A stretch of 64,000 nt of DNA from Ryuthela nishihirai. Lineage: Eukaryota > Arthropoda > Arachnida > Araneae > Heptathelidae. This document shows positions 1-57,469 of this stretch, in pieces. The stretch is taken from contig JAWZYU010000010.1 in NCBI GenBank assembly GCA_038380435.1, positions 49,200,135-49,264,134 of the forward strand, read 5' to 3'. The notes below the pieces were generated by a model, which was not told where the DNA came from, did not search any database, and was given only the letters and a program-made list of their open reading frames with translations. The first letter of the stretch is position 1; each line of letters begins with the position of its first letter. Position numbers and translations under genes: made by a program.

Positions 1-282
1 AATACGTATATGAAAAGACTGTCAGTGTAAGATCTAAATTTTAAAAGTGGAGAGGGAGCCTACCCGCAATAACTATGCTATAAGAGTTGTTAATCCTAAC
101 ACACTGTGTAAAATTATACTGAAGGTTAAACATCCCTATAAAATTTACTCTGTTAACAGGGGTGATAGAGAAGTAAAATGTATAGATAGAGAAGAGTTGT
201 GAACAGAAATTGTACAATCGATAATCCTTTCTACACAAATGAAGTGGTTCTGAAAAGAACCTTTTGTTGTTGTTGTTTTTAA

Positions 283-609
283 TTATCCTACAACCTCCAC
301 AATGCCCGCAATCTCTATCGAGGTCATGGCATCCTCGACAACCGATAGGTAGTCCATCCTTTTGACGTGGTTTAACGCTTCTACTTCCGCAAAACACACA
401 CGGCATAGAAACTCATGGGCAATGTCGTATGTTTCTATGACCGCCTCACCTTGCATCGTACTGAGCATATGCAGGATTTTGTCGGTTATAACATTCATTA
501 ATGTCTGCAAGCATTCCTCGTAGGTTATATCCTTCTGATATGAAGGAATACCTACAGACGCCAATATGCATCGTGCAGTCACATAAAACGATTGACGCGT
601 TCTCGACAT
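283..609 (-). CDS. Small intronless ORF, 108 aa, helical, possible histone-fold-like protein of unknown function
   Basis: The reading frame is open from 729, but I choose the ATG at 607-609 (protein starts MSRTRQSFYV) because a TATA-like element lies at 692-700 and the upstream codons look like 5' leader. The stop is TAA at 283-285. The protein is 108 residues and non-repetitive, with no signal peptide or membrane segment. The order short helix (TARCILASVGI), long helix (ECLQTLMNVITDKILHMLS), DIAHEFL and third helix resembles the spacing of a histone fold or bromodomain-associated fold. That is a shape impression only; I do not recognise the family. It matches none of the repeat families in the window. 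It could be a host single-exon gene, a retrocopy, or a gene from a mobile element. Confidence that it is coding is moderate. Confidence 0.45.
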   Translation of the reverse strand: MSRTRQSFYVTARCILASVGIPSYQKDITYEECLQTLMNVITDKILHMLSTMQGEAVIETYDIAHEFLCRVCFAEVEALNHVKRMDYLSVVEDAMTSIEIAGIVEVVG

Positions 610-643
610 TCTACCAGAGACTTCAAAACTATGACAGCTCGAG

Positions 644-771
644 AGACTGACAGAACACTGAGCAGAATGTTCATGTCTTAACAAGTCCCTGTATATATAA
701 ACAGTGCTCAGCCTTCTGATACGTGTCACTCGCTGGTCACTCCACGTTACTTTCCCCTTGTTGTGACGTCA
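644..771 (-). promoter_or_regulatory. Candidate promoter of the 283-609 ORF: TATA box, initiator-like TCAGT, CRE-like TGACGTCA
   Basis: On the minus strand a TTATATATAC element (691-700) is followed by arthropod initiator-like TCAGTG (656-661) and TCAGTC (644-652 region). A perfect CRE palindrome TGACGTCA lies upstream at 764-771. The order CRE, TATA, initiator, ATG fits a compact RNA polymerase II promoter. The TATA to TCAGTG spacing is about 40 nt, longer than the usual 30, so the start site is uncertain. Confidence 0.35.
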
Positions 772-2010: not shown

Positions 2011-2665
2011 ACCTTTGCTACATCTTTTCTGCAGCAGAAATCTAAAGTTTCTCTTTTCCCTTTTGTGAATGTTTCTTCCTCTGAAACTGACATGTAAAAC
2101 GATATTTGCTCTCAGTGCTTGCAAATTAAAAAAATAAGCCTTCATGTTTTTATGTTTTGGGCCCTTCTTGAGTTCAGGGCCCTGGTGCAGTTGCATCAAC
2201 TGCACCACTGGTTGAGACGACGCTTCTACAGAGGTCCAACTAGACTGTGCAATTTTGTTCTCCAAACTCTTCTGTCCTGAACTGTATCTGCTGCATCTGG
2301 CTACTGTAGGCCAATTTTAAAGAAGTCCTGTTTGACATTGTCTGCCCACTGCATCTTAGTTATCTATAGTTATGCAATATCTATCTATATTTATGTAGTA
2401 TCTATAGTTATGCATACGGGCAACATGGTCTAACCAATGAGTCTCTCTCTGCACAAAATGCTTCTCAGGAGGTTGCTGACTCCCTTACCTAACCTCGTCA
2501 TCACTTACAAGGTCAAACCACCTAATGCTCAAGATACTGAGTAAACATCTAGAATCAAAGGCATCTTTCTGTTATCTCACTTATAAAGGTGCAAGTTTCA
2601 CTACCTTAACTAACTCTAGAAAGAACCAAACTAATATAAAGCCTAATTTTTGGCCTTTAGGTGTG
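2005..2665 (-). pseudogene. LINE reverse transcriptase C-terminal relic, same family as 29346-30145
   Basis: The minus strand encodes scattered fragments of the region downstream of a non-LTR reverse transcriptase. It shares long stretches with the better preserved copy at 29370-29810, including cctaatgc-caagatact-g-gtaaacatctagaatcaaa and gggcaacatgg-ctaacca. Frames are broken by stops and indels. The 2005-2265 segment keeps an open frame of 86 codons (IAQSSWTSVEA) corresponding to the C-terminal tail. Confidence 0.6.
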
Positions 2666-2950
2666 ATTATACATGTACAGATTTGAAATAGTAACCGTTA
2701 CTGTTAAATTACTATAAAGCTTTTAGAAATAAAACTCACAATTCCTTTTATCCGAAGTCTTTTCTTTAACAAACCTCGGTCCCTATACATTTCATGCCGG
2801 GGAAACATTTTCGCGGGTCCCATGAAAATACACTCGGGTATATATACTCCTAACCTGTGAAGATAAAAACATGATAGTTTTAACTTATATATAGACGACC
2901 ATAGCCAATGACTATCCGGAAATTACTTAATTTTTCCTCCCTTTATGTTC

Positions 2951-3684
2951 TAGCCCCAACTGTGCCAGCATTAAGATTTCTTTTCAGCTACTACACATCT
3001 TGCCTTCATTGAAAAAGGGGACAACGATGGTGTTGGAAAGGCCGCCGTCGCCATTTGGATGAGACGTTAAGCATGCATAAGTGTGCAAGAAAGAGCGTTA
3101 AAGAACAGCTTCCATGATCATGGTGGGGGCGGAGTGGCTCAGTCGGTAGCGCGCCAGGCTCGTAATCTGTAGTTCCCAGGTTCGAGTCCCAGCTGGGTCA
3201 GCGTTGAGATTTATCTCCGCAAAATTCCCCGCCCTGCCCACGGTCAGTAGGGGACACTGATGGGTTTGGAAAGGCCGCCGTCCGTCGGATGGGACGTTAA
3301 GCCGTGGCCCCGGGTGCAGGTAAAGCCATATCTTGTGCACTTTAAAGAATACACTGGATAGACTTGAAGGGAGGTACCATATGTCACTCAACAGCTGTTC
3401 CAGTGAGTCCCCTCCCCCAACCTTCTCTGAATCTTCGGGGTCCATGTGACCTGGCCATTTAGCCCATGGTGTGCAAAAAAGTGCCGCTCAGAGGTAAAAC
3501 AACCCAACAACCCATGATCATGGTAGAAGGCTTCCATGATCTTGATAGAAGGCTTCTATCTGTCTCCTAACAGCTCTGCAGAGGGGGGTCCATCCCCAAC
3601 CCTCTCTTAGCCCTCGTGGGCCTTGTAAACTGGCCATTTAGCATATTGTCTGCAAAAAAAGATCGCTCAAAGGAAAAATAACCC
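2951..3684 (+). repeat. Old SINE A copy, split by a younger SINE A at 3124-3511
   Basis: The left part (2951-3123) carries the diverged central block, including TTTGGATGAGACGTTAAGC at 3054-3072. The right part (3524-3684) carries the 3' half ending in aaaataaccc. The two halves read as one old copy if the 3124-3511 insertion and one TSD are removed. Confidence 0.7.
3124..3511 (+). mobile_element. SINE family A, full length, TSD CCATGATCATGG
   Basis: Full tRNA-like head with A box at about 3135 and B box at about 3180, the central ACGTTAAGCC block, and a tail aaaacaacccaacaac. A perfect 12-bp TSD flanks it (3112-3123 and 3512-3523). It sits inside an older SINE A. Confidence 0.95.
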
Positions 3685-16587: not shown

Positions 16588-17301
16588 ATGTCCCCACATA
16601 ATTTGCATTACCTTGCATTTTATTACATACACATTTCTTGTATCGGAATGACTGAAAAAAATTTTAGAAAGATGTCATCTGAAGCCAAAGGTAGATGGAG
16701 ATGCTACAAATGCCAGAACCAAAGGTCTTCAAATATGTTAAGCCTAGAAGCGGAAGGCAATCCTGCGACAGTGCTCCAAGTGGAAAATGCGCCCGAAAAG
16801 CGGGCAACACAGAGCGAGGGAACTGACGACAGGAAGCAGCCAGACCAAAAAGCGAGAGCTTTTGTGGGTGAACAGATCAGTTACAGTGATTTGTGCCAAT
16901 TGAAAGAAGATATTGTTGCAATTCTGAGGACTGACAATCTTGCAGTTAAGGGTGAATTGGCACTTACTAAAGCAGAATTAAAAGGTGTTAGAAAAGAATT
17001 ACTTGAAGTAAAGAAATCAGCTGACTTCTGCTCTTGTAAAATCGATGATTTTTCTAGAACCATAGACTCGATTACGAAGACTGTTTCTGACGTTAAAAAA
17101 GAAAATGCCATCTTAACGCAAAAAGTTAATTCGTTGGAAACAAATGTAGCTAGACTGAAAAATGATAATATGGATTTACAGCAAGTGTCCAGAAATATGA
17201 ATATAGAGATTGTAAGACTAAAAGAAACACCAAACGAAAATTTGCCAGAATTAATTAAAACAATTGGCGAGAAGTTAAAGGTAACTGTTGGTGAGAACTA
17301 A
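16588..17301 (+). CDS. LINE ORF1 protein with partial PHD-type zinc finger and coiled coil
   Basis: A 237-codon frame, unbroken. Residues 15-42 give H-x2-C, a tryptophan at 37, then C-x2-C at 39-42, which is the second half of a PHD finger. The N-terminal cysteines appear lost or frameshifted upstream, so the annotated ATG is unlikely to be the original start. Residues about 105-225 are rich in heptad-like Leu/Ile/Val with Lys/Glu, consistent with a coiled coil. PHD-containing ORF1 proteins that multimerise on RNA are known in CR1/Jockey-group non-LTR retrotransposons. The downstream endonuclease and RT remnants support this reading. Probably no longer functional because the partner ORF2 is broken. 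Confidence 0.7.
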   Translation: MSPHNLHYLAFYYIHISCIGMTEKNFRKMSSEAKGRWRCYKCQNQRSSNMLSLEAEGNPATVLQVENAPEKRATQSEGTDDRKQPDQKARAFVGEQISYSDLCQLKEDIVAILRTDNLAVKGELALTKAELKGVRKELLEVKKSADFCSCKIDDFSRTIDSITKTVSDVKKENAILTQKVNSLETNVARLKNDNMDLQQVSRNMNIEIVRLKETPNENLPELIKTIGEKLKVTVGEN

Positions 17302-18746
17302 ATTCAAGTCGCACACAGAGTGCCATCTGCAAATAAAAGTAAACCGAGACCGATCATCGCGCAATTGGATTCGCGACGAAATAGAAATAAATGGGTCGAA
17401 GCATTTAAACGAAACAAATTTTAAACGGAAAAGAGTTGATTGGAGACGATGGTGAAGGACTGGTTTTCGTCAATGAACATTTAATCCCTGAGCTAAAGCA
17501 TGTGCTATATGAAACTAAAAAGTTTCAAAGTACTAATGGATTCAAATACGTTTGGACTAGGGATTGCAAAATATTTTTGCGACGTAGAGATGTACTAGCC
17601 CTGTAATACATGTTAGATTCTTAGAACACCTAAATACTATTCAGGTTTGATAGTTACCGATTCTATTTTTGTATTTAATTCTTTTTTGCTCTGTTATGTT
17701 TGTTGGTAATTTTTCACTTATTCAGTTAAATATATGTAGTGTTAGAGCACATTTTGATGAATTTTTGACGTACTTGGGGACTTAAAAGGAAAGACCCAGT
17801 TTAATTATATTGACAGAAATTTGTATCTACTCTTGGGAAGTCTCACTGTACAAAATGGACGGTTACAAATGCTTATCATTTTGTAGGGATGATTACATAT
17901 CAGGTAGAGTATTAATTTATGTTAGCTGTGACATCGATGCTATACAGCAACCAATCACGATGAATTGCGCAGACATTGCGGTTTAAAAACTTGAAATTGA
18001 TAACAAAGAGTGGACATTAATGGCTGTATACAGATCTCCTTCTGAAAATGTATCTAATTTCATTTCCGAATAAAACGGAATCCTAGAATCACTTGATACT
18101 CTTAATATTTTCTATCTTGGAGACATTAATATTAACTTATTAAATGACAACACAAACACTGATGAATATATAGGACTATTAGCAGAAAATGGTTTACTTA
18201 ATATGATAGAAGAGCCAACCAGAATTACGGAGAACTCGTCTACACGTATTGATCATTTATTTCTTAGAACGAAAGAGTTATATAATTGTAATATATTTCT
18301 GGATGACATTGGAATTACAGACCACTGCTTAGTTAAGGTTAATTTAGATATTAAAATTAAACAAAAATTAAATATTGATGAAATAAAAATAGTGGATTTA
18401 AAAAAGATTAACGAACTTAATTGCAAATATAAAATGAGATGATATATATATTGACGGCTCTGTTAATGCTTCTTTTAAAAATTTAATTGATACGCTAAGC
18501 CATTCAATTGATGAATCAACGAAAATAAAGAAAAAAAGTTTTAAGAAAATTAAACTGTGCATGAAAAATGAATTAGTAATTTTAATAAATTATCGTAATA
18601 CTATGTATAAAGAAATGAAGAAAAATCCTTCAGATATATCGCTTAAACAGTCATTTTCCCGATACTGAAATTTTGTCACTAGTGCCATAAGGGAAACAAA
18701 AACACAATACTTTACTAATAAATTTTCCAAAGCAGGTAAAAACCAG

Positions 18747-18799
18747 TTGGTTGTTTGTTTGGGGTTTAATGGCGCATCGGCAACAAGGCCATAATGCGC
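18747..18799 (+). mobile_element. 53-bp hairpin-bearing mini-insertion, TSD CAGGTAAAAACCAG
   Basis: A 53-bp segment with GGGGTTTAATGGCGCAT and ATAATGCGCC forming an inverted repeat (TGGCGCAT / ATGCGCCA) is flanked by a perfect 14-bp TSD (18733-18746 and 18800-18813). The long TSD points to target-primed integration of a very short retroposed RNA, possibly the 3' end of a retroposon. Confidence 0.8.
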
Positions 18800-20159
18800 C
18801 AGGTAAAAACCAGAAAAAGCAGTGGAATGTAATAAATGAAATATGTGGTAACTTTAAAGAGAAAGAAAACTAACCCCGTACAATTAAAAGTAAAAACGAG
18901 TTAATTAAATAAGATGAAAACCCTTGTAAATTTGCAAATTTGTTCAATGATTATTTTGCCGGAATTGCACGAAATTTGAACAAAGATTTGGTTCAAACAA
19001 ATGCTGATTGGGAGGGAGACGGAAAAAAAAACTGCGGTAAGTTCTTTCTTCTTAACACCAATAATAGCTAAAGACATTAGGACTCAAATTATACTTCTAC
19101 CAAAAACTAAATCTCCAGGTTTTGATGGCTTAACATCAGAAATAATTCATCTGTTGGGAGAAACATTTATCGAAATACTTGTAAATCCATTTAATCTATC
19201 CATTGAGCAAGGAATTTTTCCTGATGTTTTGAAAAAAGCTACCATTGTTCCTATTTTTAAAGCTACCATTTTTTCCATACTCAAAAGAATTAGGGAATTA
19301 TAGACCTATTGCATTACTCTCTGTAATATCTAAAATTTTTGAGAAATGAGTGAAAAATAAATTATATGAATATCTGGAAAAGAAATGTTTTCTCAGTAGC
19401 AATCAGTTTGGGTTTAGAGAACAAATGGCTACGGGTGATGCTTTATTGTAGGTAACAAATACGATTTACACAGCTATGAATAACAGTGATCATGCATTAA
19501 CAATCTTTCTGGACATTAAAAAAGCATTCGATACGGTAAATCATCAAAAATTAATACAAAAATTACAAGCTGTTGGAGTTAGAGGAGTGGCATTGAATTG
19601 GTTTCGCAGTTATTTAGCTAACAGAATGCAAAGAGTAAAAATAAAAGATACATACAATGCTTGGACTAAAATGGAATACGGAGTGCCCCAGGGATCAGTT
19701 CTGGGTCCCTTATTATTTATTATTTACATTAATGATTTAGATTCCAATTACCTAACAGGTAAATTTTTTGCTGATGACACTTGCCTGACGTATACTGATT
19801 CTTCGATTATTTTTAAACAAGCAAATAGTGATCTAGAATTAATTAGAAACTGGACCACAAGTAATTTTTAACAATAAATCTGACAAAGACAAATGCAGTT
19901 TATTTCTACTTAAAGAAAAATAGTTCTGTTACAGATATTTTGCCTCGCAATAAATTGAAATATCATGATACAAATTGTTCATCGAAAAATCACTGTAACT
20001 GTCCCCAAATTCCTTTTGTGCCGTCAGTGAAATATTTAGGTATTTGGATTGATGCAGGCCTAACTTGTAAAGTGCATGTAACATGGGTTACAAAGGTCAT
20101 CCGTAACCTGGCTCGCTTATATCTCGTAAGACATTTAGTTTCATTTAAATTTATGTATA

Positions 20160-20812
20160 TGTTACCGCTAAAGCTCGAAAGCCGTTAATGTGCACATTAC
20201 CTAGCTAATCTACAGATTAACTAATTTGCTCCGTTAACGTGCGGAATCAAGAGTTTTCCGCATTTTACCTAGGTAATGTGCACATTAACGGCTTCCGTGT
20301 CGTTAAAGTTCAAAAGTTTGTTTCTCTCATAGTGGTGAATCTCTTGAATATGAATCTTCGTGTCACGTAATTCACTCGTCCGCATTATAAAAAACGCACC
20401 GGATGAGCGGAGGCCAAGTGAGAACGAATCGGTAAAGTGATTCATTCTTGATAACGAATCACTAAAATGATTCGTTCTCACTTGGCCTGCTCATTTTGGG
20501 GGCGTTTTTTATAATTCGGACGACTGATTCATGTTGACAGAGGGATGACCTTGGTTTCAACTCTACTCTCGAACACTAGATAAATAACATTATGTTAATT
20601 TAAGCGTACAGAAACGTTCCTGTTGTTCCAGCAAAGATCTTATTTTCACTTTAACGAGTGCCTAGTAGGTAATGTGCAGATTATCCAGGTAATTTGCAGA
20701 TTACCTAGGTAATTTGAGAAATGAAACAATTTTCCGCACGTTAACGGATCACCCTAGTTAATCTGCACAATACCTAGATAATCTGTAGAATTTCTGCACT
20801 TTAGCTGTAACA
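20160..20812. mobile_element. 653-bp non-autonomous DNA transposon inside the LINE RT, TSD TATA
   Basis: Terminal inverted repeats TGTTACCGCTAAAG and CTTTAGCTGTAACA. With a 4-bp TSD TATA (20156-20159 and 20813-20816), removal rejoins the RT frame exactly between codons for MY and TL, which supports these boundaries. Inside are many short repeats of AGGTAATGTGCA, ATTACCTAG and CCGTTAA in both orientations (subterminal repeats). The superfamily is not assigned. Confidence 0.75.
20377..20522. mobile_element. 146-bp foldback element nested in the 20160-20812 transposon, TSD ACT
   Basis: Arms CGTCCGCATTATAAAAAACGC and the complementary end are followed inward by further pairing arms around GCCAAGTGAGAACGAATC. 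A 3-bp ACT flanks both sides. Almost the whole element folds into one hairpin. Confidence 0.75.
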
Positions 20813-21479
20813 TATACACTATATTATGCATTAATCCATTCTCAATTAACGTATGGTATAAAATCTTGGGGAGGCATATATTTCAATAATTTTAAACAAC
20901 TTTTAGTGCTGCGAAAGAGATTAATTCGCTTATTAACTAAAAGCCCAAAAACGCAACCTTCATTACCTTTGTTTCGAGAAGCAGGGATTTTGCCTTTACG
21001 CTACGATTATTTTTTCGAAATTATTAAATACTTTTACTTTAGAAATGATAGCATTAAAACTGATACGAATAATTACCAATTACGACGAGATAAGAACATA
21101 AATTATGAAATTCCTGCATTGCATAAGGAAATTTTTAGGCACTATTATTTGTACTTAGCACCGAAATTCCGACGAATTCGAAAATATCACGAATTTTCGT
21201 TTGTTTTCTAAAGTTCTCAAGAACTACAATTTGAAACTGGATGATGTGGAAACTTTATTGCATTAAACTACTAGGACTGTTTATGTAACATAGATATTAA
21301 ATGTTTCTTCCTTTCTGACTTTCTCACTTCTGGATTTTTAGAATTTTTTTGATTTGAGTTATTTTCGTTTTTTGTGTATTATATTCAATGTGACGACTGA
21401 TGTTTTAAATTGAAATTGTGTCTGTATGGAGATCTCACGAACGAGCCTACTCTTGTGAGACCTCTAAGGTTTTTGTATA

Positions 21480-21525
21480 CTGTAAAACATTATCTGAAAT
21501 AAAAATTATCTATCTTATCTATAAG
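21480..21525 (+). repeat. LINE 3' end with TATCT microsatellite tail
   Basis: gaaataaaaa is followed by TTATCTATCTTATCTATAAG, after about 270 bp of 3' untranslated region. A simple-repeat tail instead of poly(A) is typical of several CR1-group LINEs. Confidence 0.55.
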
Positions 21526-22333: not shown

Positions 22334-22545
22334 ATTTCACTATGGCCGAGTGGTTAGCGCGCTTGGCTACTGGTCTAAAGGACCTGGGTTCGATCCCCGG
22401 GTAAGGCACGGATGTATGTGTCGTTTTTCTGCTGAGGTCTTGCCATCCTCACCGACCTTCTACTATGGCATATAAACTGACAAGCTTCTGTCAGACCTCT
22501 GTGGCAAGCAGCTGCTTGAGGGGGTATTTATTATTTTTTTTATTA
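22334..22545 (+). mobile_element. SINE family B, full length
   Basis: tRNA-like head with A box TGGCCGAGTGG (near 22345) and B box GGTTCGATCCC (near 22388), a central cctctgagg-like region, and a 3' tail ctgtcagacctctgtggcaagcagctgcttgag ending in an AT-rich run. The head looks like a class II (Ser/Leu-type) tRNA but lacks a proper acceptor stem, so it is not a tRNA gene. Confidence 0.9.
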
Positions 22546-26160: not shown

Positions 26161-26399
26161 TTTGATTGAGATTTTTAATTTATCTTTAGATATATTTTTT
26201 AATAAAAATCACATTGCAAAAGTTATTAAGCATTGAATGTGATTTCGTATCGAGATAACATAAAACTGTTTACATTTTCTGTCCAGTATTTATTTTGAGC
26301 AATAAAAATTCATGTATTGTTTGAAATGAGCATGTAACTGTGTACACAAAAGTGCCTCTTAAGATCACCTTTGCTTACAAAAGGAATAATAATAAATAA

Positions 26400-26553
26400 A
26401 TAAATATCTCGTAAAGCAGTTGCTTGCCACAGAGATCTGACAGGAGTCTTTCAGTTTGTACGCCGTATTAGAAGGTCTGGGAGGAAGGCGAGATCTGAGC
26501 AGAAAAACAACAAAAACATCCATGCCTTACCCGGGATTCGAACCCAGGTCCTT
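26400..26553 (-). mobile_element. SINE family B, partial
   Basis: From the 3' tail (gcagttgcttgccacagag) to the B box ggattcgaaccc on the minus strand. The tRNA 5' part is missing, replaced by a SINE A fragment. Confidence 0.8.
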
Positions 26554-26670
26554 TACACAATGGGCTAAACTGCCAGGTCATAAGTATCCCAAGGTCTCAG
26601 AGAGAAGGTTCAGTGAAAGGGATCCACTGCACAATTGTTGTTAAGAAACAAATGTGAGACTTCCGTCAAG
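26554..26670 (-). repeat. SINE A fragment fused to SINE B
   Basis: Begins at cacaatgggctaaa and covers the 3' third of family A. It joins directly to the B copy without any TSD. Confidence 0.6.
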
Positions 26671-29262: not shown

Positions 29263-29345
29263 AAATAAATTACCGCTCAAGCAGCTGCTTGCCGCAGAGA
29301 TCTGAGAGCATCCTGTCAGCATAACCAAGTCTTTCTAGATTCATT
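29263..29345 (-). repeat. LINE 3' tail shared with SINE family B
   Basis: Minus strand reads CTGACAGGATGCTCTCAG, then ATCTCTGCGGCAAGCAGC, TGCTTGAG and AATTTATT. SINE B copies end CTGACAGGCTCCTGTCAG, ACCTCTGTGGCAAGCAGC, TGCTTGAG, TATTTATT. The similarity extends about 55 nt to the 3' terminus and then stops, as expected for a shared reverse transcriptase recognition tail. Confidence 0.7.
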
Positions 29346-30145
29346 ATCACCATCCTCAAGCAGCCATGGGCTACGGAGGTCCAAGTAGACTGGGCAATTT
29401 AGTTCTCCAAATGCATCTGTCCTGAGCTACATCTGCTGCATCTGGTCGCTCTAAACCAGTTCTAACAAGGTCCTGTTTATATTGTCTGCTCACCCCATCC
29501 TAGGTGCTTTAGGCACACTGTTCATAACTGTATTCGCTAATCTATAATTATCCATACGGGCAACATGGGCTAACCAAAAGAGTCTCTCTCTGCACAATAT
29601 GCTGCTCAAAGGAGGTTGCTGACTTAGCCTAAACTCATCATTACTTACAAAGTTGAGCCACCTAATGCCCAAGATACTGCGTAAACATCTAGAATCAAAA
29701 GAATCAAGTTTCCTATTATCTTGTTTACAAAGTGTCCACGTTTCACTACCATAAATAACCCTAGAAAGCATCAAACTATTATTCAGTGTAATTTAGTATT
29801 TAGGTGTATACGCCTATTTCTCCAGACTCTCCATAGATTTTTAAAAGTCCCAGAGGCAATCCCTATTCGTCTGTTAATCTCATACCGCACATCACCAATA
29901 TCTGTTACATAGCTCCCAAGAAAATTAAGCTGAGACACCTGCTCAAGAGTGGAACTATTCAGATTAATTGAACCGCAGCCTGCCTGTCCAACTCTCATCA
30001 GTTTAATTTTCTCTCTGTTTATAACCAAACATACTCTACTACCAGTCTCATCAACAGCTCGAATGAAAGAGTTCATCTCATCAACATCATTTGTCAAAAG
30101 GGAAAAATCATCAGCATTATGCTGATGATAAATCAAAAATTTTCA
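29346..30145 (-). pseudogene. LINE reverse transcriptase C-terminal half, relic
   Basis: Two adjoining minus-strand frames. 30136-29783 has an RT palm C-like NADDFSLLTNDVDE near its start, then LNFLGSYVTDIGDVRYEIN and WRNRRIHLNTKLH. 29774-29490 continues with VIYGSETWTLCKQDNRKLDSF, RCLRSILGIRW, and the C-terminal CRERLFWLAHVARM segment. The frame break between them and a lost tyrosine before ADD mark it as dead. It stops abruptly at 30156 where an hAT end begins. The clade (RTE, CR1/L2 or other) is not decided. Confidence 0.8.
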
Positions 30146-30156
30146 GATCTCTATAC

Positions 30157-30300
30157 CAGTGGTTCTCAACCTTTCATGCCCCACGTACCCCCTGGAACAG
30201 TGTAGGTAACTGGCGTACCCCTTGTATAGATAGATAAAACTATAATTATAGTATAACAATGGGAATAAAATAAAACATATATATATATACATTAAATTTT
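30157..30300. mobile_element. hAT MITE left end (family of 32418-32777)
   Basis: CAGTGGTTCTCAACCTTTC, GTACCCCCTGGAA, AACTGGCGTACCCC and an AT microsatellite, matching 32418-32690. I cannot find its right end nearby. Confidence 0.7.
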
Positions 30301-37425: not shown

Positions 37426-38305
37426 TATAATGATTCGATAGAGCCCGTAAAAAGTAAAGGGGGCGTGTCATGTCCCCCCCCCCTCAAGCAGCTGCTTGCC
37501 ACAGAGGTCTGACAGGAGCCTGCCAGTTTATATGCCAGAGTAGAAGGTCTGAGAGGATGGCAGGACCTCAGCAGAAAAACGACACAAACAGCCATGCCTT
37601 ATCCGGGGCTCGAAATCAGGTCCTGTAGATCAGTAGCAAAGCGCGCTAACCACTCGGCCACGGGACGGCACGTGTCATGTCCCTCTAATTTATTTAGTAT
37701 TGTATTTTTTTTTTATTTTTATTGTTGTAAATATATATATGTATAAGTGTATTTTTGGAAGTGCTGAGATGGGGATGTGACTCACAAGTTGTTTTCAGGT
37801 CTGAGCTGGCTGACTGCACATGCTAATAAGTCAAAAGCACTTTTATGACTAGACTCTGGCATGAGTGCTAATGCTGGAGACAAGGGGAGCAATAATGAAT
37901 AATAGTCTGAGCGTCTCTGTCAAACTGGAAGATAGTTTGAACACGTATCAAGGAACGCTGCTCTTGCTCAAAAACAAAACCCTTAAGGAGAGCATTCAGT
38001 TCTGTGTGAACTAGGGTTCAGTTTTGTGTGAACTGAGGTACGGGTCTGTGTGAACCAGGGTTCAGTTCTGTGTGAATTGAGTTACGGTTCTGTGTAAACC
38101 TGGTAGTATGTGAAGATTAAATATCTTCTCACCGAGTGTGAGATTGGTAAGGCGAGAATCTTCAAAGTTCAGATCTTCATCACATTGCATGATTGTTTGC
38201 AATAGCAAAGCAGCGAAGGCCCAAGGAATCGAGTGCATCCCCAGCACGTAATTGCATATAAATGTAAATAAACTGTGTCGTCCATATACTACTCTCATGC
38301 TTGAA
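37426..38305 (+). mobile_element. LTR retrotransposon 3' end: polypurine tract and LTR, with SINE B inside
   Basis: A purine run AAAAAGTAAAGGGGG (37449-37463) precedes TGTCATGTCCC, a typical LTR start. The LTR continues after the SINE at 37671, has a TATA-like GCATATAAATG (38246), AATAAA (38264-38269), and ends near 38305. Five copies of a GTTCTGTGTGAACY unit lie at 38000-38100. No gag or pol is present, and the 5' LTR is not in the window. The boundaries need a second LTR to confirm. Confidence 0.55.
37477..37670 (-). mobile_element. SINE family B, TSD CGTGTCATGTCCC
   Basis: Full-length minus copy from the CCCCCTCAAGCAGCTGC tail to the GCCACGGGACGGC head. The 13-bp TSD lies at 37464-37476 and 37671-37683. 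The unoccupied target is preserved at 35241-35253. Confidence 0.96.
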
Positions 38306-38307
38306 CA

Positions 38308-38450
38308 TGGATGTATGTGTCGTTTTTTTTTTTTTGCAGAGGTCCTGCCATCCTCTCAGACCTTCTAGTATGACATATAAACTGACAGGCTCCTGTCAGA
38401 CCTCTGTGGCAAGCAGCTGCTTGAGTGGGTATTTATTTTTTTATTTTATT
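38308..38450 (+). mobile_element. SINE family B, 5'-truncated
   Basis: Starts at GGATGTATGTGTCG, so it lacks the tRNA head. It includes the shared tail with CTGTCAGACCTCTGTGGC. A T13 run expands its middle. Confidence 0.85.
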
Positions 38451-38682
38451 TATTTCTACACATCACTTGGTGCAGCAAGTCTAAGGCATATGTCGATACA
38501 TGTGTAAAATCCCGCGAACCTGTGATTTCATTTTATTAAGGGACAAGCGATCTCCTCTGCTAAAGAGTGATATTTATGTCATCGAAATCGCAACACGACG
38601 TTGGGCGCAGTTCAGTCCTCGTACGTAATTAAACGTGAGGGAGTAAGAATCTGTGTTCGCCCCACCACCACGACAGAAGGGG

Positions 38683-38980
38683 TTGGGTTGGGTTGTTTTA
38701 CCTCTGAGCGGCACCTTTTTGCACACCATGGGCTAAATGGCCAGGTCACATGGACCCCGAAGGCTCAGAGAAGGTTGGGGGAGGGGACCCACTGGAACAG
38801 CTGTTGGGAGACAGATGGTAGCCTCCCGTCAAGGCCATCCAGCGTGTTCTTTAACGTGCACAGGGTATGGCTCTCCCGCACACGGGGTCACGGCTTAACG
38901 TCCCATCCGACGGACGGCGGCCTTTCCAAGCCCATCGGTGTCCCCTACTGACCGTGGGCAGGGCGGGGAATTTTGCGGAG
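38683..38980 (-). mobile_element. SINE family A, 5'-truncated, TSD ACGACAGAAGGGG
   Basis: Ends at TTTTGCGGAG, entirely without a tRNA head, yet has a perfect 13-bp TSD (38670-38682 and 38981-38993). This shows truncation during reverse transcription. Confidence 0.95.
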
Positions 38981-38999
38981 ACGACAGAAGGGGAAGAGA

Positions 39000-50463: not shown

Positions 50464-50691
50464 TAAGGAGAGAACTATTTAAAATTTTTGATAAAATTAG
50501 CCTCTCCTCTCTAACATGAATCTCTTTTATCTCTGTAAGGTACCTAATATTATTGTCCTATTTGGGCGTCGCAGATAAGACTAGCTTCAAAATATCTGAA
50601 AGTCCTTATAATTAATTATTGTTTTCTAGTCATGTAAAAATATTAACTTAGTTTTGGTAATTCTTCAGTAAAATTGAAGATGTACAATAAA

Positions 50692-50886
50692 AAAAAATAT
50701 CCCCTCAAGCAGCTGCTTGCCACACAGGTCTGACAAGAGCCTGTCAGTTTAATACGCCACAATAAATATGAGAGAATGGCGGGACCTCAGCAGAAAAACA
50801 ACACAAACGTCCATCCCTTACCCGGGGCTCGAACCTATTTACCTTAGTACAGTAGCCAAGAGCGCTAACCACTTGGCCACGGGATG
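50692..50886 (-). mobile_element. SINE family B, full length
   Basis: Tail (cccctcaagcagctgcttgcc) to head (aaccacttggccacgggat). GATG-AAAT strings on both sides give only a weak TSD. Confidence 0.88.
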
Positions 50887-56963: not shown

Positions 56964-57240
56964 CCGAAGTCTAAAGTTTAATTATGTCTCAAGACACTGC
57001 AATATTGTTAATTTTTGACTGTATATAGTAATTGCAGGAATAGAAAACTGAAGAGATTGCGAGCGTTTCCTTCCTCCCACCACTTTTTAGATCGTGTATG
57101 TTTTGTGGTCTGTCCACCAGTAGATATTTAACTTTGTTTTTGGAAATAAATGAAAATTATTATTAGGATCGAGTGTTTAATGAAATATTAAGAATCTCAT
57201 TTCCTGATTTCCAAATAGCAACCTCTAGCAGTGGAAAATA

Positions 57241-57443
57241 AAAAAAAATAAATACCCCCTCAAGCAGCTGCTTGCCACAGAGGTCTGACAGGAGCCTGTC
57301 AGTTTATATGCCAGAGTAGAAGGTCTGAGAGGATGGCAGGACCTCAGCAGAAAAACGACACATACATCCATGCCTTACCCGGGGCTCGAACCGAGGTCCC
57401 TTAGATCAGTAGCCAAGCGCGCTAACCACTCGGCCATGGGACG
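57241..57443 (-). mobile_element. SINE family B, full length, TSD GCAGTGGAAAATA
   Basis: Perfect 13-bp TSD at 57228-57240 and 57444-57456. The 3' end carries an A-rich run (aaaaaaaataaata). Confidence 0.96.
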
Positions 57444-57469
57444 GCAGTGGAAAATAGAAAACCTTTAAA

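Follow-up and report, generated by a model that had tools for sequence, protein, structure and literature searches.

A SINE B segment beside an RTE-like LINE in Ryuthela nishihirai: probable nested insertion and likely kinship of the LINE and SINE B tails

There are 58 reported LINE/SINE tail pairs, with CR1 and RTE LINEs predominant (PMC3747384). In Helicoverpa armigera, the RTE element HaRTE1.1 has a short 3' UTR that ends in TGA trinucleotide repeats, and HaSE1 is a tRNA-derived SINE whose 3' tail resembles that of an RTE LINE (PMC3272025). The LINE/SINE tail relationship described here, between an RTE-like LINE and a family that we call SINE B, is of this known kind. It differs from the Helicoverpa pair in that the tails there are called significantly similar, whereas ours agree at 64% over 45 nt and have different terminal repeats. 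With the RTE clade as exemplified by SR3 of Schistosoma mansoni (PMC1291365) our LINE shares an AP endonuclease, a reverse transcriptase (RT), a short 3' UTR that closes with short tandem repeats, and target duplications; its repeat unit, however, is GAT, and its duplications measure 11 and 16 nt against 10-12 for SR3. For the zebrafish LINEs ZfL2-1 and ZfL2-2, PMC4176376 describes a stem that is recognised generally and a loop that is recognised specifically. The tails studied here can also form a 3' stem-loop, with a shared stem that is tentative; but ZfL2-1 and ZfL2-2 are L2-type elements with retrotransposition assays.

We examined a window of 64,000 nt from the spider Ryuthela nishihirai (contig JAWZYU010000010.1), whose genome assembly measures 3.11 Gb. 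The minus strand carries the 3' part of an RTE-like LINE at 29341..30151, comprising the RT C-terminus, the stop codon and a short 3' UTR; we refer to it as the relic and to copies elsewhere by locus number. The first-pass annotation had recognised RT C-terminal coding sequence here, and it is real: PF00078 matches with E 9e-4, a value below Pfam's cut-off, and DNA identity to positions 2675-3491 of the LINE at L021 is 85.5%. Frameshifts are present in this RT C-terminal sequence. The stop codon TAG (29373-29371, minus strand) belongs to a GTAG shared by 7/8 aligned rows, L004 having GTAT; after it come CCCATGGCTGCTTGAGG and then a (TGA)n in decayed form. The genuine LINE 3' tail, the 45 nt before the terminal repeat that align without gaps to the SINE B tail, spans 29354..29398 (minus), and the terminal repeat itself, (GAT)n in other copies, survives in decayed form at 29341..29353 (minus). 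Over 29358-29341 the match to (TGA)6 is 15/18, a score equalled by 10/2000 shuffles and 3/4000 random stretches. A second LINE copy, 77% identical, lies at 2226..2664 (minus), and its homology ends at the stop codon.

On its other side the relic is cut by a terminus at 30157..30171 (plus strand) that we take to be hAT-like. LINE homology reaches up to this terminus, and L002, L006 and L007 match the relic as far as the same edge. Since the LINE runs right up to 30157, its left flank is lost. A 9-nt duplication, TAGAGATCT/TAGTGATCT, around the LINE plus its tail (52/19,989 random flanks) seemed to prove that the tail was native to the LINE; we rejected it, since comparison with L002, L006 and L007 identifies its 5' stretch as LINE sequence. 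No duplication around the relic and its tail is provable. The hAT-like terminus, CAGTGGTTCTCAACC, occurs in three copies in the window (30157, 32418 and 32548, plus strand), all in one orientation.

Downstream of the relic's repeat, the 57-nt segment 29263..29319 (minus) matches SINE B 3' ends (49/57 identical) and corresponds to positions 139-195 of SINE B, the right-hand portion of a copy. It departs from the SINE tail consensus at 8/57 positions, as does the oldest-looking SINE copy, at 26398. When nhmmer is run with a model of just the six SINE tails, the segment is found at E 4e-14, and 0/2000 shuffles reach its score against the SINE B tail. The five SINE B 3' ends that the first-pass annotation had listed do match it (38382-38438 and 22477-22532, plus; 57246-57302, 37480-37526 and 50691-50747, minus), and so does a sixth, 26398-26454 (minus). 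The shared tail had been said to begin at 29345, but similarity to SINE B starts at 29319. One of the stretches assigned to it, TGCTTGAG at about 29362-29355, forms the end of the LINE itself and recurs in the other LINE copies. Of the hairpin ascribed to both, SINE B has a strong version (z -2.1) and the relic a broken one (z -0.28). Between segment and repeat lies a spacer (29320..29340, minus), perhaps a decayed target duplication on a comparison by eye of ACTTGGTTATG with SINE B ACTCTGGCATATAAA; a shuffle test of the spacer against the SINE B body found nothing (1251/2000). A search of papers for the tail letters of the segment found none. The idea that the loci are contaminants was also rejected: tail and SINE A had no matches in viral_contigs or genome_contigs, and for the LINE none was confirmed in viral_contigs.

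SINE B is represented in the window by full copies at 57246..57440 (minus, duplication TATTTTCCACTG) and 37480..37664 (minus, duplication GGGACATGACACG), further copies at 22342..22532 (plus) and 50691..50884 (minus), a 5'-truncated one at 38306..38438 (plus) and an older one at 26398..26555 (minus); duplications are thus seen in 2/6. We also drew a 200-kb sample of the genome, 20 stretches of 10 kb (L009-L028) at positions picked at round numbers. It contains 28 SINE B tails at E up to 0.01, which extrapolates to perhaps several hundred thousand copies genome-wide. SINE B probably derives from a tRNA, judging by presumed A and B boxes that we assigned by eye against the pol III consensus; Rfam gave no tRNA match on 57230-57460, the region of one copy. 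In all six window copies (e.g. 57246-57440, minus) a run of at least five T separates the B-box region from the tail, and some sample copies have four. Such a run could stop pol III before the tail, and how the tail enters the RNA is then a puzzle. Among the SINE B matches of the sample, 5/28 are truncated on the 5' side near SINE position 104-115, a cluster that lies just beyond an inverted repeat within the SINE (CTGAG..CTCAG) and may mark a site where the reverse transcriptase stops.

The first-pass annotation read the segment 29263-29319 as the 3' tail of this LINE, from which SINE B would have copied its own. Two points favour that reading: position and strand agree, the probability of a SINE B tail no more than 52 nt away being about 0.003 for each LINE stop, and the order LINE then tail recurs at several loci. 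The ends of the LINE family contradict it. LINE copies in the genome end in GCTGCTTGAGG(GAT)n, the terminal repeat being (GAT)n or (AGG)n. A genome search with 29500-29100 scored 40 of 5358 candidates; most of the 41 matches listed stop near query position 160, where the repeat ends, and just three, the window, L002 and L004, pass position 170. The aligned copies L003 and L005-L008 show CATGGCTGCTTGAGG plus a GAT-type repeat, then unrelated DNA. Exact CATGGCTGCTTGAGG(ATG)4 ends number 27,771 genome-wide, against 0 for the reversed control. Two copies carry perfect target duplications that start from the last trinucleotide repeat unit: L021 with ATGTTGTTAGG (11/11), which adjoins the LINE's 5' edge, and L024 with AGGATCCCAGATATAT (16/16), where about 14 nt of other sequence separates the duplication from the start of LINE homology. 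These intact 3' ends lack the segment, an outcome that the first-pass annotation itself had named as refuting its reading, and 0/7 LINE ends found by BLAST in the 200-kb sample carry it. A pattern scan of the same sample found ten LINE-end places, three of them without LINE support, and a SINE tail within 110 nt in 0/10. Pieces of the L021 copy, read in two frames, match PF03372 (E 9e-15) and PF00078 (E 6.5e-19 and 3.7e-14); because this copy has both AP endonuclease and RT, we class the family as RTE-like, and the clade's short 3' UTR with short tandem repeats and target duplications are present as well.

A further candidate, that tail-bearing LINEs form one subfamily, was rejected: they do not group in a tree of LINE copies (14 rows, L022 left out), although support is poor for every branch in it. 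For the LINE family as a whole, the native ends and the 0/7 count refute the idea that the segment is the LINE's tail, and we give that reading almost no credence. It is also at odds with L004, L038 and L039, where the LINE sits inside a SINE B copy and is flanked by SINE sequence left and right.

These three loci point to another origin. At L039 the order is SINE B 8-133, LINE with (GAT)n, SINE B 132-195; at L038 it is SINE B 18-131, LINE, SINE B 132-195; and at L004, by BLAST, SINE B 8-143, LINE, SINE B 135-194. The two SINE halves have just 0-2 nt in common at L038 and L039, which implies almost no target duplication. At L004 we see by eye the repeat TTAAACTAACGG / TTAAATTGACAGG, and an automatic duplication test begun at an inner LINE edge found none. 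At L002, ACTCTTGCATATAAAC on the left and ACTTTGCATATAAC on the right of the LINE both resemble SINE B 124-139; the left 16 nt agree at 15/16 positions, as do 19/5000 random stretches, and SINE B continues from 124 on the right. L002 and L021 are 95% identical over their last 1.67 kb.

Because L004, L038 and L039 are nested, the LINE most likely struck a SINE B copy of which the segment 29263-29319 is the right half; otherwise the segment is a truncated SINE B beside the LINE. Our favoured account, which we hold with reasonable though far from complete confidence, is that the RTE-like LINE put itself into (less likely beside a truncated) SINE B copy, and that the SINE B tail nonetheless comes from this LINE lineage. 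Under the nested origin, the most likely one for the window copy by comparison with its sister loci, an RTE-like LINE with its own end GCTGCTTGAGG(GAT)n would have inserted into a SINE B copy, and the hAT-like element together with decay would have removed the left side. Against nesting, neither the relic nor L036 has a left SINE half, and a duplication around the relic is not provable.

The main rival to nesting is that a 5'-truncated SINE B landed beside the LINE 3' end after the LINE had inserted. In its favour, 9/28 sample SINE B tails have BLAST matches starting from SINE position 85 or later, and repeats occur near the truncation point at L022 (8 nt), L020 (8 nt) and L024 (17/19 nt), counted without a shuffle control. 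But no duplication was found around the relic's tail, and the three sister loci of the same order are LINE-in-SINE; we consider this alternative unlikely. A general caution follows: a tail common to a SINE and its LINE neighbour can be a nested SINE, and only LINE termini with target duplications can tell.

Genome-wide there are six exact junctions of LINE repeat and SINE tail, of which four are identical; the four loci that we fetched from the six are L036-L039. Their LINE-to-SINE B junctions, (GAT)n|ATATAAACTGACAGG, are identical to the base and lie on three contigs. L036 and L037 have the SINE B right part only, and the left flank of L036 is unrelated; the left LINE edge of L037 was not resolved. 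The flank of L036 and the identical junction in L036 and L037 would suit a chimera in which LINE RNA and a SINE B tail, joined by template switching or read-through, were inserted as one unit. No duplication was found flanking such a unit in either copy, however, and the same junction in L038 and L039 comes with both SINE halves, which makes a chimera very improbable. A target preference for SINE B was considered and set aside: by a rough estimate, six exact junctions (four identical) are not above what chance nested insertion would give.

Both families, the LINE and SINE B, end in GCTGCTTGAGG directly before the terminal repeat. Over the last 45 nt before the repeat, L021 and the SINE tail at 57302 are identical at 29/45 positions without gaps (hand count), the final 11/11 included. 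By estimate, 29/45 identities against 11 expected at 25% have a tail probability below 1e-6, in a register that was compared after the match had been noticed. An alignment of seven LINE and five SINE rows over the 45 nt has 24/45 invariant columns and no internal gaps; the row for the relic, 29355-29399, is shifted by one base and has a gap at its end. Given the ungapped 29/45 likeness with 11/11 at the end, the SINE B tail probably comes from this RTE-like lineage or a sister. We regard the kinship of the two tails as likely, not proven.

The likeness could instead be due to chance, with SINE B mobilised by an unrelated LINE. Blind searches are in keeping with this. A SINE-tail profile had listed 29381-29353 before any likeness was sought, at E 2.2, 20th of 26 rows and behind unrelated places. 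When a covariance model of 11 SINE tails alone was run on seven loci (35,815 bases), the LINE ends of L005 and L007 ranked 2nd and 3rd with E 1.5 each, after a full-length top match that looks like a SINE B remnant; the remaining 5/7 LINE ends (L003, L006, L008 and a pair from L015) were not found at E 10 or better. In an earlier unanchored test the 11-nt end match was attained by 33/2000 shuffles, and the terminal repeats differ, (GAT)n in the LINE and (TATTT)n in SINE B. Set against these are the 29/45 ungapped identities in a register fixed by the terminal repeats, with 11/11 at the end, and the fate of the alternative partner that we tested, the CR1-like LINE, which has another 3' end in 6/6 loci including the window copy. 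Chance is a possibility that we take seriously while thinking it unlikely, and convergence over the 45 nt may be another explanation.

The proposal in the first-pass annotation that this LINE family mobilised SINE B thus gains from the kinship at the true LINE end (29/45), although the stretch it cited, 29263-29319, was the wrong one. The 45-nt tails are similar by direct count; descent, and recognition of the tail by the RT, are probable readings of that similarity. A tRNA-derived RNA would have picked up its tail from a sister of this LINE, and the reverse transcriptase of that sister would start copying at the acquired tail. Because the loop has changed and SINE B ends in (TATTT)n, a sister family is a likelier direct partner than this LINE; none was found among the LINE places in the 264 kb of window and sample or at the CR1-like loci.

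In both tails a stem can form between positions 25-29 and 35-39, GUAGC or GUGGC with GCUGC, and all five loop positions differ between LINE and SINE B. Folds of the 45 nt use this stem for both, but the 57-nt SINE fold and the covariance model pair 27-30 with 37-40, not the shared stem, and the fold of the LINE end is no better than shuffles (43/200). We offer as speculation, and a doubtful one, that SINE B parasitises a sister LINE with the terminal stem GURGC/GCUGC kept and the 5-nt loop wholly exchanged, a natural loop swap that would mark a change of partner specificity. To our knowledge, tail recognition has been less studied in the RTE clade than in L2. It is the true LINE end that points to the origin of SINE B, with a stem possibly kept while the loop changed.

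The CR1-like LINE of the window, with a coiled-coil ORF1 and RT, spans 16588-21525 (plus). It is abundant in the genome; in a search that scored 150 of 9064 candidates, many copies among those listed are without stops. Its 3' end consists of a long hairpin and ATCT-type repeats. The hairpin matches SINE B at 14/16 positions, as do 33/2000 shuffles and 144/2000 random stretches (SINE copies included). As a partner of SINE B it was rejected, the window copy and five others all having this other 3' end with ATCT-type repeats, degenerate in L034.

Elsewhere in the window, 221-660 (minus) holds an intact ORF of 108 aa, with a 3' stem-loop of histone type downstream of it (35.4 bits to Rfam RF00032). 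The ORF has no Pfam match and no homolog in the protein collection searched, and we regard the locus as a predicted orphan gene with a histone-mRNA-like 3' end. The window also contains a second SINE-like family of about 300 nt, with some 30 copies in the 64 kb, many of them more than 90% identical, such as the one at 38680-38981 (plus).
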